Position numbers and translations under genes: made by a program. A stretch of DNA of 64,000 nt from Gloeomargaritales cyanobacterium VI4D9 (GTDB lineage Bacteria > Cyanobacteriota > Cyanobacteriia > Gloeomargaritales > Gloeomargaritaceae). This document shows, piece after piece, positions 29,757-38,026 of the stretch. Position 1 is the first letter of the stretch. Every line of letters begins with the position of its first letter. The stretch spans positions 2,083,157 through 2,147,156 of the forward strand of contig OV696605.1 of assembly GCA_927797885.1 (NCBI GenBank). Reading direction: 5' to 3'. The notes beneath the pieces were generated by a model that was not told where the DNA came from, did no database searches, and was given only the letters and a program-made list of their open reading frames with translations.

Positions 29757-29873
29757 TTGTTTCATGTTTTGGTTTATATGAATTAGAATACCATATTTTG
29801 ACCCCTCTTTTTCTGCCTTTACCTACCTTTCAACACTTCTGATTTATAGGGTCTTTAAGTCAAGTGTCCAGTG

Positions 29874-30290
29874 ATGTCCCATATTTATCTGGCGGCTCCC
29901 TTATTTAGTTTGGCAGAACGAAATTTTAATCAATCACTTGTGGACTATCTAACTGAGCGGGGATTGCACGTCTTTTCACCATACAAAGAATGTGATGGAC
30001 TGGTGGGTATTGATATTTATAAAACCTGTCTTAGGGGAGTCTCAACCGCTTCTATCTTAGTGGCTATTTTAGATGGAGCTGATGCCGATAGTGGCACCTG
30101 TTGGGAATGTGGTTATGCTTCAGCAAAAGGTATCCCTATCGTGGCAGTGCGTACTGATTTTAGAAGCACTGGTGATACCAATGGTTTTAATGCCATGCTT
30201 TACTACAGTGCTACTGTCGTTGTGGAAGGTACTGATAATCTGTTTGCAAGAATCTTCCAAGCTGTAAAACAATTGCGACATCCTAGTTAG
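29874..30290 (+). CDS. Nucleoside 2-deoxyribosyltransferase-like protein
   Basis: A 138-residue protein of the nucleoside deoxyribosyltransferase fold: N-terminal HIYLAAPLFSLAERNFN (the YLAGP/F strand-loop), then LVAILDGADADSGTCWECGYASAKG, where the SGTxxExGYA motif carries the catalytic Glu. Family members exchange bases on deoxynucleosides or hydrolyse modified nucleotides. The ATG at 29874 is preferred to the GTG before it. It begins 24 bp after the target duplication of IS A, and its AT-rich composition and isolation suggest transfer. It could be a cargo of the island or an independent salvage gene. Confidence 0.78.
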   Translation: MSHIYLAAPLFSLAERNFNQSLVDYLTERGLHVFSPYKECDGLVGIDIYKTCLRGVSTASILVAILDGADADSGTCWECGYASAKGIPIVAVRTDFRSTGDTNGFNAMLYYSATVVVEGTDNLFARIFQAVKQLRHPS

Positions 30291-30571: not shown

Positions 30572-32431
30572 ATGGATTCACTACCTAAAAACTCATTGAC
30601 CAAATTCGCTTTATGGACAGATAACAGACCTCGCTGGTGGATTGGATTATCTATACCGTTTGCCGCCGTAATGACTTTAATAACAGCCGTAACCCCTGGA
30701 TTACCAACTAGAGAAATTTACAAATCATATTATGTCCATATGCTCCCAAGAGTACAAACGGTTGATTTCAATATGTTGTTCTATATGTTACCTGCCGCCT
30801 TATCGAATGCGATGGCTGGGCATCATGTCGAAGAAATAAAAAATCAACCATCTCAATATAGGCAAATTTCACAGAACATCCAAAATATACTCGATAGCAA
30901 TTATGGGGTTTTTTACCTTTTAGTGACTCACGAAAATATTAAGCCTAGTGACATTGAGAGTGGTAGAGATGAGCATATTTTATATGAAACTAAAAATCAA
31001 GGACTGACTGACATTTTAGATAAGGGTTATATTGTCCATTCGGATTTGATTTTATATCCACAGCCTGCCTGTAGCACCGTAAGTTATCCTGATCCCAAAG
31101 CTGAACGTCCAGAAGTCAATAGGGAATGCCAAGCTAAAATTGAGAAAGCTATTGCTGAAGGACGAACTAAGGTACTAGGCAGAGTTCACTACGTTAAAGG
31201 TAAAACACCCAGTTTTTGGAGAATCGCTCAAAATTTTAACAAAAACCCCTTTAGTGAGGACAGTGGTTATCATTTCATCCGCCATTATTTAGGTTTTACA
31301 TTTATTGCCTTTTTCTTGCTCTATTGGTTCGTTCATTTTCTACTGAAGCATACAGCAACTCAACATAAATTGAACGAAGCCATTAAAAAGTCTTTAGAAA
31401 ATGAGCTAGTAGCCACTGACTTTGCAAAACGACTGGCTGAAGAATCTGGCAAGCGTAGATTGGCGGAGGAACAAAATCGAAGGATTGAAGCAGAAAACAG
31501 ACTCTTAAGACTCATGGAATTTGATCAAGTTTTTCGTCAACAAATTGATGCAATTTTTACATCTGAATTGGGCAACACTTTACAAAGATTAGATGCTGAA
31601 TACCTTGCCATGTTTAAGCGTTTGGAAACAGATGTTCAAAATATCACGCATGACATTCGTAAAGCCCCTCTACTCTGTTCATTAGATGTAATCAAAGATG
31701 CACTTGAAAAAATTAGGCGAACAGATTCAAGGGATGAAAAAATAGATTTACTCATTGAAACAATCACAAAAATTGATGATAGCATTCAAATCATCAACCA
31801 GGTAATTAATAACCTAGATGAAATGATTTCTTTAGAAAAAAGAACATATAGGTTAAGTGATTTACTCGACGAATTTGAAAGAAATTTACCCAATAATGTT
31901 AAAGATATACCACTATCTTTTATTCGTGAAAACTGTGACTACTGCATCAATATCAACCGTTGGCATTTCAGAAGTATATTAAAAAATATTCTATACAACT
32001 CTCGTAAGGAATTAATCAGACTGAAGATAAAGAAAGTACGAATTGGCGAAAGTTTCCAACCTCAAATACAGATTTTATGTTCCGTAATTAAAGATAAAAA
32101 TGAAGCTCAGATTGTCATTGAGGATAATGGGGGTGGTATTCCTGAACAATATTTAGGTAAACTTTATCAAACACCGGAACGGTTAAATCAGTCAAATGGT
32201 AGGACAAGTGGCAATGGAAGTATGATTGTTTTTGCCTATTTATCATTTCATAATGGGAAAGCAAAAGTTGAGAATCTTAAAGAGAGTGATGATGATAATG
32301 CTAAAACTATTGGTGCAAGAGTGACAATTTCCTTTCCAATTGTTGAATGTCCAACCGAATGTCTGAATGAGAAACGTTGTTCACAGTTGAATGAAGGAGG
32401 TACACATCATGGCTCACTTTCTTCTTGTTGA
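30572..32431 (+). CDS. Membrane sensor histidine kinase
   Basis: A 619-residue kinase. From ATG 30572 (ribosome site GGAGGGTGA) come TM1 (about 22-42), an extracytoplasmic sensor of ~190 residues with no domain I recognise, TM2 (about 239-257), a long charged coiled coil (about 265-345), the phospho-acceptor region ITHDIRKAPL with candidate His360, and an HATPase domain: N-box NILYNSRKEL (472-481), G1 IEDNGGGIP (517-524) and the G2-like TSGNGSMIVFAY. The H-box is unusual, closest to the HDLRNPL type. It overlaps the receiver-RelE gene by 23 bp. The AT-rich composition differs from the flanking core genes. Confidence 0.85.
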   Translation: MDSLPKNSLTKFALWTDNRPRWWIGLSIPFAAVMTLITAVTPGLPTREIYKSYYVHMLPRVQTVDFNMLFYMLPAALSNAMAGHHVEEIKNQPSQYRQISQNIQNILDSNYGVFYLLVTHENIKPSDIESGRDEHILYETKNQGLTDILDKGYIVHSDLILYPQPACSTVSYPDPKAERPEVNRECQAKIEKAIAEGRTKVLGRVHYVKGKTPSFWRIAQNFNKNPFSEDSGYHFIRHYLGFTFIAFFLLYWFVHFLLKHTATQHKLNEAIKKSLENELVATDFAKRLAEESGKRRLAEEQNRRIEAENRLLRLMEFDQVFRQQIDAIFTSELGNTLQRLDAEYLAMFKRLETDVQNITHDIRKAPLLCSLDVIKDALEKIRRTDSRDEKIDLLIETITKIDDSIQIINQVINNLDEMISLEKRTYRLSDLLDEFERNLPNNVKDIPLSFIRENCDYCININRWHFRSILKNILYNSRKELIRLKIKKVRIGESFQPQIQILCSVIKDKNEAQIVIEDNGGGIPEQYLGKLYQTPERLNQSNGRTSGNGSMIVFAYLSFHNGKAKVENLKESDDDNAKTIGARVTISFPIVECPTECLNEKRCSQLNEGGTHHGSLSSC

Positions 32432-33404
32432 AGATAGACTTGATATTTGCGAAATTTGGCGCAACTGGCTCCTTGAAGAAGGTCACACATGTCAGTGGGC
32501 TAACACGTATGAAGATGCTATTCAAAAAATTTGGTTAAGTGAGCAAAACGATGGAGAACCGTTTGATATGATTTTGCTAGATCATGAATTAGACGGAGGT
32601 TTTTTCGGAATTAATGTTTTGGAGGAAATTTCTGAGGAACTAGGTCAGGATTATAAAGAACATCGCTTTGTTGTTATTACTGCTTCTCATGACATGGGAC
32701 TGGTTAGCATTTACAGCCAAAGAGGAGCTTTAGGTTATCTAATCAAACCTACTTCAAGAGAATCATTCTTTGCCACGATTATTAATGCTTTAGAACGCAG
32801 ACGCATTTATGTTGAAAACAAGGAGGATTGGGAAGCCGCAGTTAGAGTGCTTGAGGACTTAGAGTTACTGCCTAAAATTGAGCAAATGCAGAGGGATTTA
32901 GAGGCATTTCAAGCCTTAAGGGAAACCCATAATAAGTTATTGAAAGACTTAAAAAAAGCCGGAGGGAATGAAGCTAAAATACGAGAAAGTTATGCCTATG
33001 CCTACCAAGCAATTACGAATAATACTGCCACAATAGAATCTATAATACCCTGTTTGCAACCATTTTTTATTACTGAATCTTTTTGGGAAGATATTGAATA
33101 TACCTTCGATCATGAACGCTTAAAGTTTTATGGTTTACAGTCCTACCTATTGAGAATCGGGAATGATCCCAATGCCTACCGGATCAAGCATTTAAGCGGT
33201 GATGCCCCCGGTCACTACGAATATCGAACAGGCATAACCCATCGTCTTTATTTTCGGCGGCAAGATGGTCATATTGTTTTAGAACGATTTGGTCACAAGA
33301 GTAAACAAAAAGAGATATTGCATTTTTTACATGAGACAGGGGGCGGAGAGGTTTATAAAGCTCATGAAATAGTGAGTAAAATCAAGGACACCTCTACCTA
33401 TTGA
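32409..33404 (+). CDS. Response-regulator receiver fused to RelE/ParE-like domain
   Basis: A 331-residue protein with ribosome site GAAGGAGGT ahead of ATG 32409. The receiver is at residues 1-130: acidic VED (8-9), phospho-acceptor Asp58 in MILLDHEL, VVITAS (88-93) and Lys113 in GYLIKPTS. A coiled coil follows (about 145-185). The C-terminus (about 225-305), NAYRIKHLSGDAPGHYEYRT then GITHRLYFRRQDGHIVLERF then GHKSKQ, resembles the RelE/ParE beta sheet with a late basic/His segment. This suggests phosphorylation-gated RNase or gyrase-directed activity, or a degenerate binding domain. The gene overlaps the kinase by 23 bp and is clearly its partner. Its last codons (DTSTY) lie in an R1-type repeat end. 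Confidence 0.8.
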   Translation: MAHFLLVEDRLDICEIWRNWLLEEGHTCQWANTYEDAIQKIWLSEQNDGEPFDMILLDHELDGGFFGINVLEEISEELGQDYKEHRFVVITASHDMGLVSIYSQRGALGYLIKPTSRESFFATIINALERRRIYVENKEDWEAAVRVLEDLELLPKIEQMQRDLEAFQALRETHNKLLKDLKKAGGNEAKIRESYAYAYQAITNNTATIESIIPCLQPFFITESFWEDIEYTFDHERLKFYGLQSYLLRIGNDPNAYRIKHLSGDAPGHYEYRTGITHRLYFRRQDGHIVLERFGHKSKQKEILHFLHETGGGEVYKAHEIVSKIKDTSTY

Positions 33405-34222: not shown

Positions 34223-34387
34223 ATAAGATCAACACGACCTAAGAGTGCTCATGTTTTAGTTGGATAGTCTATTTCCTGAAAGTAGCTATTCTCGGAGCTG
34301 TCTATTGACTTATTTTTTTGGATGTTATAAAGTGCGAACAACTAATGATCTACATCTAACTATTTGTGTGGTGTTAGGGGGTTTGAT

Positions 34388-37300
34388 ATGCGTCATTTAC
34401 TTTGTGGGACAGTTTTAGGTGGGTTAATTGTATTACAGGGCGGTGTAGGTTTAGCCCAGCGGATCACCCCAGCAAATGATGGCACGGGTACGCAGGTTAA
34501 TCGGAGTGGGAATCGTTATGACATCACGGGGGGACGGCAGGCGGGGCGCAATCTATTCCACAGTTTTGGGCAGTTTAATGTGGATGCGGGGAATATTGCG
34601 AATTTCTTGGCTACCCCTAATTTGCACAATATCCTGGCACGGGTGACGGGTGGTTCTGCTTCCTACATCAACGGGTTAATTCAAGTAACGGGCGGCAATC
34701 CCAATCTCTATCTGATGAACCCGGCGGGGATTGTGTTTGGGCAAGGGGCGAGCTTGAATGTGCCTGCTTCGTTTATTGCCACCACCGCTGACCGCATCCT
34801 GTTTCCCGGTGGGAGTTTTAATGCTTCCGGGGTGAATGACTACAGTAAATTGGCAGGGGAACCGATTGGGTTTGCTTTTGACCGCAAAGACCCGGCGGCG
34901 ATTGTCAATGAAGGGAATTTAAGCGCCAATCCGGGGCAAAGTGTGAGTTTGATTGCCGGACAGGTGATCAATACAGGAAAGGTACAAGCACCGGGGGGGA
35001 ATATCACCCTTGCCGCTGTGCCGGGGGAAAATCTAGTGCGGTTGTCGCAGACGGGGCAATTGTTAAGTTTGGAATTTAACCCCCAGCAGGCCGCCCAAAT
35101 GATGGACAGCCAGGGCAATATTCCCACCACCCGTTTACCGGAATTGCTCACCGGGGGTGGGGTAACCACGGTTACCCAAAATAGTAATGGTACGGTGCGT
35201 GTGGCGGGTTCCGATTTGCAAATTCCCACAGGCACGGGCACGACAATTGTTTCTGGGGTGTTAGATGTTTCAAGTACGAGTCAAACCGGGGGTAATGTGG
35301 GGGTATTTGGCACCCAAATTGCTCTAGCAAAAAGTGAAATTAATGCCTCAGGATTTACGGGTGGGGGTGAGATTTTAATCGGGGGTGAATTTCAGGGGAA
35401 AGGGACGCAACCCAACGCCCAATATACGTTTGTGAGTCGTGATTCTCAATTAACTGCCGATGCGGTTAACTCTGGAAATGGGGGCAGGGTGATTGTGTGG
35501 GCGGATAAGGCAACGGATTTTCGGGGCAGTATTACCGCCAAAGGGGGACAGAATGGGGGTGATGGGGGATTTGTAGAAGTATCAGGGAAAGAGAGTTTAG
35601 CATTCACAGGGAATGTGGATACGTCAGCACCTAAGGGCAAGACGGGTACCCTCCTGCTTGATCCGGCGAATATCTTTATTGTGCCGGGGATTGGGGTAGA
35701 TAATGGGGAATTACCAGTGATTTTATTTAGTGACCGTCCCGGGGAAAGCTTAACTATTGGAGCTACTAGTCTCATTTCTCAACTATCCAGCAATGATGTC
35801 GTACTCCAGGCAACCAATAATATCACTTTTAACGCTAATTTATCCGGTTCTTTTGGAGATACCACCCTGTTTGCCGATGCGGGTAATACGATCACAGTGA
35901 ATAATCAAATTTCTGGTTCTAGTCTTAGTTTGGATTTCTTTGCTGGTAATACTATCAATGCCAACGCCTTGATTTCTCTTTCTAATGGGGAGGTGGCGTT
36001 CAGTGCGGGAAGAAGTATCTCTACGGCCAATATTTTCGCAACGGAAGGTATCTTTTTGAATGCAGGCGGTAGTATCAATACCGGTAACCTACAAAGCTTT
36101 GGGGATGTCTTCATTGGTAGCAATTCCGGCAATATCCAAACTGGTAATATCACCACTCAAGGCGGAGATATTGGTATTGCTACTTTCGGGGGAGGAATCA
36201 GAACTGGAATTTTGCGATCCAGTGCTTCCTCTTCTGGGGATGCTGGTGATATTTTCCTGTTTGCTCCTAGGGATATTCAGACTGGTTATATTCAAGCGGA
36301 AGCTATCAATGGGCGGGGGGGCGATGTCACGATTTTCGGTTTCTCGAATGTACGGGTGCAAGGGGTCAGTTCCTTTGGGTTTAGTATCAGTACCAGAGGG
36401 GGAGCAGGGGGAGGAGAAATTTTTATTCTGCACGGGGGACAAAATTTCTTTACGATTGGCGATGCCAGTGTCAATGGTACATCTGGCGCAATTACTACCG
36501 GTCAGTTTACCCTCTCGCCGTTCCAGAAGTTTTACTCCCGATTCTTAGGAAACATTAGTATTATTTCCCTGTTTGATGGCGGCATTGGTAGTGATTTATT
36601 TGGCACCGAATTTTCCGGCCTCGGTTTGGATTCCGGTTTGGATGCCATTGATGAGGTAGCCTTTGATGATCTTGATTTTACGCGGCTGGCACTGGCGAAT
36701 GCTTTGGCTGCTGGGGATTATGCAGCAATTTTGTCCTTAGATGATTTGTTTGGCAATGAATTTAGTCGCTTTTTAGGAGTCAAAGCAGTTAACAATTTTG
36801 ATTCGGTTGAGTCCGTCGGCAATATGCTCAGTCGTCTGGCCAAAGAAACCGGTAAAAAACCAGCAATTATTTACCTAATGGTGGATGAACGGCAGTTAAG
36901 CATTGCCGCGATTACGCCGGGGAGTCGGGCGGGGGTAGCGAGTCCGGGGATTCTCAAGTTTGATCCGGGTTTATTCACATCTACGCAACCGTTGCAATAT
37001 ATCGCCCAGCAGGAAGCCAAAATCCAGCCGGTGGTGCGGGGGATTCCTGAAGCGAAACGTTCTCAGTTGATGCCGGTGGTGGAACGGTTCCTCACTGCCC
37101 TCAAAGACCCCCGCCAGCGCACCAGTACTGCCTATTTGAAAGATGCCCAGCAGTTGTATCGGTGGCTAGTAGCTCCCATTGAAAGCGAACTACAAGCCCA
37201 GGGGATTGATACCCTGCTGTTCTCAATGGACAATGGCTTGCGGTTATTGCCGGTGGCGGCTCTGCATGATGGCAAGCAGTTTTTGGTGGAAAAATACAGC

Positions 37301-38026
37301 ACGGCTCTCATCCCCAGTGTGAATTTGATTGACACCCGTTACCGCAATATCCGTAATACCCAGGTGTTGGCGATGGGGGCGGATACCTTTGCCAATCAAG
37401 CGCCTCTACCAGCGGTGCCGGTGGAATTGAAAGTGATTACGGAGGAATGGCCTGGGCAGGCCTTTTTGAATCAGGAATTTACCGTCCAACGCTTGACCCA
37501 GGAACGATTGCAGAGCGGTTATCCCATCATTCACCTGGCGACCCATGCGGATTTTGCCCCGGGACGATTGAGTGATTCCTATATCGAATTTGGCAACAAT
37601 CAACGGTTGAACTTACCGCAACTGCGGCAATTGCCTTTGCGGGAACCCAATGTGGTGGAATTGTTTACCCTGAGTGCCTGTCGGACTTCCGTGGGGGATG
37701 TGAGTTCAGAATTGGGGTTTGCGGGTTTAGCGGTGCAGTCCGGGGTGAAAAGTGCCCTAGCGTCCCTGTGGTACGTGTCGGATGAGGGCACCCTGGCGTT
37801 GATGAGTGAGTTTTACAAAAATCTGCGGCAGGCACCGATCAAGGCGGAGGCACTACGGCAGGCGCAAATTGCCATGTTGCAAGGGAAAGTCACGATTAAA
37901 GGGGGCGAACTGCGGGGCGTGCGGGGGGGGATTCCGGTGCCGCCAGTGATTGCCCAGCGGGGGGATCAGGTGTTGAACCATCCCTACTACTGGGCGGCCT
38001 TTACCCTCATCGGTAGCCCCTGGTAA
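34388..38026 (+). CDS. Secreted haemagglutinin-type (TPS) protein with C-terminal CHAT protease domain
   Basis: A 1212-residue protein. ATG 34388 begins a signal peptide (MRHLLCGTVLGGLIVLQGG, cleaved near LAQ). The N-terminal ~250 residues are a filamentous-haemagglutinin TPS domain (NLYLMNPAGIVFGQGASLNV is the hallmark), guiding export through a TpsB pore. The middle is a beta-helix of Gly/Asn-rich repeats. The C-terminal ~350 residues are a CHAT caspase-like domain with His1053 in HLATHADF and Cys1098 in LSACRT. No TpsB gene is nearby. Known cyanobacterial proteins share this layout; targets are unknown. A GTG eight codons upstream is a possible alternative start. Confidence 0.9.
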   Translation: MRHLLCGTVLGGLIVLQGGVGLAQRITPANDGTGTQVNRSGNRYDITGGRQAGRNLFHSFGQFNVDAGNIANFLATPNLHNILARVTGGSASYINGLIQVTGGNPNLYLMNPAGIVFGQGASLNVPASFIATTADRILFPGGSFNASGVNDYSKLAGEPIGFAFDRKDPAAIVNEGNLSANPGQSVSLIAGQVINTGKVQAPGGNITLAAVPGENLVRLSQTGQLLSLEFNPQQAAQMMDSQGNIPTTRLPELLTGGGVTTVTQNSNGTVRVAGSDLQIPTGTGTTIVSGVLDVSSTSQTGGNVGVFGTQIALAKSEINASGFTGGGEILIGGEFQGKGTQPNAQYTFVSRDSQLTADAVNSGNGGRVIVWADKATDFRGSITAKGGQNGGDGGFVEVSGKESLAFTGNVDTSAPKGKTGTLLLDPANIFIVPGIGVDNGELPVILFSDRPGESLTIGATSLISQLSSNDVVLQATNNITFNANLSGSFGDTTLFADAGNTITVNNQISGSSLSLDFFAGNTINANALISLSNGEVAFSAGRSISTANIFATEGIFLNAGGSINTGNLQSFGDVFIGSNSGNIQTGNITTQGGDIGIATFGGGIRTGILRSSASSSGDAGDIFLFAPRDIQTGYIQAEAINGRGGDVTIFGFSNVRVQGVSSFGFSISTRGGAGGGEIFILHGGQNFFTIGDASVNGTSGAITTGQFTLSPFQKFYSRFLGNISIISLFDGGIGSDLFGTEFSGLGLDSGLDAIDEVAFDDLDFTRLALANALAAGDYAAILSLDDLFGNEFSRFLGVKAVNNFDSVESVGNMLSRLAKETGKKPAIIYLMVDERQLSIAAITPGSRAGVASPGILKFDPGLFTSTQPLQYIAQQEAKIQPVVRGIPEAKRSQLMPVVERFLTALKDPRQRTSTAYLKDAQQLYRWLVAPIESELQAQGIDTLLFSMDNGLRLLPVAALHDGKQFLVEKYSTALIPSVNLIDTRYRNIRNTQVLAMGADTFANQAPLPAVPVELKVITEEWPGQAFLNQEFTVQRLTQERLQSGYPIIHLATHADFAPGRLSDSYIEFGNNQRLNLPQLRQLPLREPNVVELFTLSACRTSVGDVSSELGFAGLAVQSGVKSALASLWYVSDEGTLALMSEFYKNLRQAPIKAEALRQAQIAMLQGKVTIKGGELRGVRGGIPVPPVIAQRGDQVLNHPYYWAAFTLIGSPW

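Follow-up and report, generated by a model that had tools for sequence, protein, structure and literature searches.

The 64,000-nt stretch of DNA analysed here (the window), which belongs to a genome of 3.16 Mb that is cyanobacterial by its relatives and gene content, carries a pair of genes, overlapping by 23 bp, that code for a membrane sensor histidine kinase and a receiver protein with a C-terminal extension (Table 1). The locus has a G+C content of 0.36-0.39, as against 0.50-0.62 across most of the remaining window, and transposase ORFs lie upstream of it; insertion sequences are all the context that this locus shows, the defence-gene neighbours described below being at other loci. An earlier note, made from the letters of this DNA, had described a membrane kinase with an unrecognised sensor of about 190 residues, the overlap of its ORF with that of a receiver protein bearing Asp58 and Lys113, and an AT-rich island beside insertion sequences, all of which our analysis bears out.

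Table 1. Features of the kinase/receiver locus, in window positions.
Feature	Position	Strand	Basis or remark
Nucleoside 2-deoxyribosyltransferase-like gene	29871..30290	+	adjoins operon; possible accessory
Membrane sensor histidine kinase, 619 aa	30572..32431	+	ORF, Pfam, alignment
TM helix 1, predicted (aa 23-41)	30638..30694	+	hydropathy
Periplasmic sensor domain (QTVDFN...SNYG..F...VT....PxP....G+V+Y+.+..P)	30704..31276	+	sensor profile
TM helix 2, predicted (aa 240-258), coiled coil next	31289..31345	+	hydropathy; sequence
Phospho-acceptor His360 in NITHDIRKAPL	31649..31651	+	invariant alignment column
HATPase_c domain (aa 466-590)	31967..32341	+	Pfam
Receiver-RelE response regulator, 331 aa	32409..33404	+	GGAGG ribosome-binding site just before ATG 32409
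Receiver domain (aa 1-125)	32409..32783	+	Pfam
Phospho-acceptor Asp58 codon	32580..32582	+	sequence, alignment
Helical / coiled-coil linker (aa 126-215)	32784..33053	+	
RelE/ParE-superfamily C-terminal domain (aa 216-313)	33054..33347	+	profiles, model, alignment

Both proteins have the hallmarks of a two-component system, namely an H-box and HATPase domain in the kinase and the Asp, Thr/Ser and Lys residues of the receiver. The kinase matches HATPase_c in Pfam (E=2.2e-8), and its alignment shows no variation at H360 (HDIRKAPL) or in the N, G1 and G2 boxes; the sensor between its two TM helices gives no Pfam match. The receiver domain matches Response_reg (E=1.7e-11) and carries the canonical residues D9/D58/T91/K113, none of which varies among the 7 intact relatives aligned. 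Response_reg is the sole domain that Pfam reports in the receiver protein of the window, which shows no CARF domain. An ordinary DNA-binding output was considered and rejected, as the protein has no HTH and its best matches are RelE toxins.

The assignment of the C-terminal region to the RelE/ParE superfamily, which the earlier note had proposed, draws on profiles, shuffled controls and a structural model. Taken alone, the window domain (residues 216-313) gives no Pfam match and a weak match to YoeB (E=0.08). The C-terminal domains of its relatives match RelE_StbE in four of six cases (best 4.9e-4), along with HigB-like (8.6e-4), ParE (0.003) and YafQ models and few others. Against the ParE model PF05016, with its curated cut-off of 23 bits, the Nostocales relatives score 21.6, 22.7 and 23.3 bits, the last being a full-length relative (L185:5870-6826) that exceeds the gathering score; the window protein itself falls under it. 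In HMM-HMM comparison (hhalign), the scores were 28.9 against a cyanobacterial YoeB alignment and 29.8 against a ParE alignment, and none of 100 column-shuffled alignments attained them (maxima 19.5 and 18.8, respectively). An AlphaFold (AF2) model of the domain, built from two input sequences (pLDDT 63), shows the RelE topology with a strand 1 of two residues. In a Foldseek comparison of this model with the PDB, in which no match reached E<0.001, the ten best matches are all YoeB, RelK, YafQ, HigB, ParE or related toxins, with YoeB and RelK at the top and the CARF-RelE protein Cami1 at rank 11. A full-length AlphaFold model, also from two sequences (pLDDT 51), was too poor for use; sequence searches of the PDB gave essentially only coiled-coil matches, falling on the linker, with a linker-plus-RelE profile, and no match with the RelE domain alone. 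Each of these lines is modest by itself; taken together they are mutually consistent, and by profile and predicted structure they place the C-terminal domain (about residues 216-313) in the RelE/ParE superfamily.

Within this domain, K260, Y270, E271, Y272, R273, R279, Y281, R283, E292, R293 and K297 are invariant. The His-Tyr catalytic pair of the YoeB kind is unconserved in the receiver-RelE family, with no invariant His at the position of YoeB H83; hence, a ParE-like domain and a dead fold are both conceivable, readings to which we return below. Between the window and its counterpart in genome G003 (genomes and loci are given by our G and L handles), the RelE domain differs by 9 synonymous and 2 nonsynonymous changes (dN/dS 0.05), which suggests purifying selection.

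Such a fusion beside a kinase, which the earlier note had proposed to seek in other genomes, occurs in at least eight other cyanobacteria. The operon is found in G001, G231 and G352, in Chlorogloea purpurea, whose kinase has a sensor region too divergent for our sensor profile, in G567 and G568, both of Nostocales type, and on plasmid4 of Aulosira laxa NIES-50 (AP018311.1). A scan of genome contigs with receiver-biased patterns returned nothing, and one centred on RelE returned one named relative. In every intact two-gene locus, the kinase gene either adjoins or overlaps that of the receiver-RelE protein. The claim that no antitoxin lies near also stands for the intact loci examined, beside none of which we found a conserved small gene, though an antitoxin might be encoded at an unlinked site, and G352 has an XRE-type HTH gene two genes downstream.

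Some copies are broken. The G003 operon has an insertion sequence within the RelE domain, a 29-aa relic of this domain survives in G190, and in a second copy in the window's own genome (G000) insertion sequences cut the kinase and leave the receiver-RelE gene intact; hence, the kinase may be dispensable there or supplied in trans. Insertion sequences interrupt three different loci, in the RelE domain (L045, in G003), in a receiver-DUF2325 gene (L046, in G052) and in the kinase (L047, the second G000 copy), which could reflect either chance in genomes rich in such elements or selection against the system.

The sensor domain turns up, by profile, in 30 of the 390 cyanobacterial genomes sampled, which brings to light a wider family that the earlier note had missed. 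Neither of the two outcomes that the note had named as refuting its idea was seen: the C-terminal domain falls in the RelE/ParE superfamily, and other genomes do carry a like fusion. Most members are single chains, with a TM-sensor-TM unit, a long coiled coil and a C-terminal effector. The effectors over the respective Pfam cut-offs are a HicA toxin that retains the G-S-H motif (three proteins), a Gp49/HigB toxin (one, L102:2768-4609; PF05973, 40.5 bits) and a NERD nuclease (eight). Four others end in a Card1-like nuclease, one over the cut-off and three under, and in further one-chain members a DUF2325 domain occupies this place, two falling just short of the cut-off and the rest being recognised by profile. 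The window's own genome codes for one of the sensor-coiled coil-Card1-like endonucleases (L048:5316-7283, at about 1914452-1915063 of G000:C1), the other Card1-like members being at L086, L103 and L104. No HicB-like gene adjoins the HicA fusions (L091:5791-7617, L093:5849-7624 and L107:5688-7319). DUF2325 ends sensor or receiver proteins at L087, L089, L092, L101 and L046:8687-9352, which hints that this uncharacterised domain may itself be an effector. G052 has the kinase with a receiver gene after it into which an IS630-like element has inserted; on the far side of this element is a DUF2325-like domain (E=3.2e-23 against a profile of the one-component members).

Across the sensor tree, there are 11 changes of effector label, as compared with a minimum of 7 and a mean of 17.9 for shuffled labels. 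Close relatives by sensor bear different effectors: NERD and DUF2325 members form a well-supported sister pair (99/93), and the G352 receiver-RelE member falls apart from the window clade and, with lower support, beside the HigB/Gp49 member. To judge from these sequences, the sensor is held constant and its effectors are exchanged, across both one- and two-component forms. Of the indirect arguments that the RelE domain, too, serves as an effector, this constancy amid swapping is the strongest.

Genes for a PhnD-like periplasmic binding protein (PF12974) adjoin the sensor gene or lie close to it in G352, Chlorogloea, G567, G568, G224 and G052, as they do on plasmids of Calothrix and of Nostoc sp. 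C052; none was detected in the stretches read for the window's genus, G231 and Aulosira. In G352, L043:2214-5060 joins a Ser/Thr protein kinase to a PhnD-like binding domain in one protein, and its gene lies 2 bp upstream of that for the sensor kinase. Beside the RelE relic of G190 is a single NERD-TM-PhnD-like chain (L186:6369-8261), possibly a parallel one-component design. The pair adjoins GmrSD genes in all three Nostocales loci (Aulosira, G567 and G568), and is also near DISARM DrmB/DrmC in G567 and a type I-type restriction enzyme in Aulosira, neighbours which favour a role in defence or conflict in that branch. Genes for an SNase, an acid phosphatase, an S1/P1 nuclease and a deoxyribosyltransferase in the vicinity hint at a signal with nucleic-acid or phosphate chemistry, though to name a ligand from such PhnD and nuclease neighbours is speculation. 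Tentatively, this could be an unrecognised class of receptors, in which a conserved periplasmic sensor, often together with a PhnD-like protein, would read an extracellular danger or nutrient signal and fire swappable effectors that attack nucleic acids (RelE, HigB, HicA, NERD and Card1-like), in one- or two-component form and with no antitoxin.

We consider it fairly probable that the window pair is a two-component system whose output is a toxin, with phosphorylation switching on the RelE-superfamily domain and with the sensor driving swappable effectors elsewhere. The coupling of an outside signal to toxin activity is the most likely common theme, through phosphorylation here and directly in the one-chain relatives. 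The periplasmic sensor would read the outside signal, in several relatives perhaps by way of the adjoining PhnD-like protein, and control the kinase, which would phosphorylate Asp58 of the receiver. This would act through the helical linker, probably by dimerisation or repositioning, to turn on the RelE-superfamily domain and so slow or halt protein synthesis, with ribosome-dependent mRNA cleavage as the likeliest means. In the resting state, the covalently attached receiver domain would keep the toxin off and, hence, no antitoxin would be needed. Dormancy or abortive defence would be the likely uses. The domains, the operon, its recurrence, the swapping of effectors, the lack of a neighbouring antitoxin and the conserved residues for phosphotransfer are observed; toxic activity, activation rather than inhibition by phosphorylation, the ligand and a defence role are inferred. 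Activation is favoured by the persistence of the receiver-RelE gene beside the broken kinase in G000, an argument weakened if the window kinase acts on it in trans, and by the precedent of Cami1, a ligand-activated RelE protein that operates without an antitoxin (PMC11229360).

The switch might also work the other way, as the earlier note had allowed for, with a RelE domain that is active by default and restrained by phosphorylation or by contact with the kinase, the latter serving as the "antitoxin". Such an arrangement would account for the lack of a nearby antitoxin and for the close linkage of the two genes in every intact two-gene locus; the tolerated G000 copy with its cut kinase (unless the window kinase stands in for it) and the one-component HicA and NERD members, which lack both a kinase and an adjacent antitoxin, make it unlikely. 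Improbable as well is a catalytically dead RelE fold that acts as a ribosome-, RNA- or protein-binding module, through which the pair would gently regulate translation or another process. While the unconserved YoeB catalytic pair and the weak single-sequence likeness to RelE families are in keeping with this, the basic set K260, R273, R279, R293 and K297 is invariant in seven relatives, and the same sensor elsewhere bears HicA with its G-S-H motif and the NERD and Card1-like nucleases. We give little credence to a further variant, which retains the rest of the favoured model and makes the effector a ParE-type gyrase inhibitor in place of an mRNA interferase: the Nostocales relatives do score best with the Pfam ParE_toxin model, but PF05016 includes RelE mRNases too (PMC11980606), and the top Foldseek matches are YoeB and RelK. 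That the pair is a degrading accessory remnant in the insertion-sequence-rich island of this genus, with no present function, fits the broken G000 and G003 copies and the G190 relic but is very doubtful, given that both window genes are intact, that dN/dS is 0.05-0.40 and that intact copies occur in several other families.

The output of a two-component system is nearly always transcription or a second messenger, and a RelE-type toxin nearly always needs an antitoxin. Among response regulators with enzymatic output, those of the CheB, PleD and RpfG type resemble the window protein in having an intact receiver (D58/T91/K113 in the latter) ahead of a C-terminal effector and an operon shared with a histidine kinase, but here the output is a toxin fold. 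That fold and its profile similarities are shared with the RelBE, YefM-YoeB, HigBA and ParDE type II modules, from which the pair differs in having no neighbouring antitoxin and in the fusion of the toxin to a receiver linked to a kinase. Comparable, too, is Cami1 (8phb/8phj), an ancillary effector of type III CRISPR systems in which a RelE toxin is likewise covalently tied to a signal-receiving domain with no classical antitoxin; its input is cyclic oligoadenylate via CARF, whereas here a membrane kinase feeds a receiver domain. The sensor family includes a counterpart of a further CRISPR ancillary nuclease, Card1. The transmembrane BECR toxins termed ToxM similarly tie a RelE-superfamily domain to a membrane segment, but their toxin is N-terminal and within a TA module, while here it is C-terminal and preceded by the sensor; the 2025 survey of multidomain RelE/ParE toxins that describes them lists no receivers or response regulators (PMC11980606). 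In the full-text, open-licence literature, where absence is not proof, we found neither a receiver-RelE fusion nor such a sensor family. The toxin fold and the signalling logic are each known, and it is their coupling and the surrounding sensor family that are new. If the favoured model is true, a phosphorylation-gated toxin, along with a sensor family that swaps toxins of unrelated folds, would form a direct path from an outside signal to growth arrest, and the disputed role of the toxins of chromosomal toxin-antitoxin modules would become directly testable. It would also offer a modular, switchable toxin for laboratory use.

A PADLOC search gave no relevant match to a catalogued defence protein for either the kinase or the receiver protein of the window, and carriage by phages is unsupported, since no relative turned up in the viral contigs and phage records searched. 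The deoxyribosyltransferase-like gene accompanies all four copies in the window's genus and keeps beside the operon in either orientation (for example, L044:8304-8735). It was rejected as a candidate antitoxin, being of the wrong family, missing at other loci and present without the pair in G002. Just downstream, at 34364-38026 of the window, lies a gene for a large filamentous-haemagglutinin-type protein that, from its sequence only, appears to have a CHAT-like C-terminal region.
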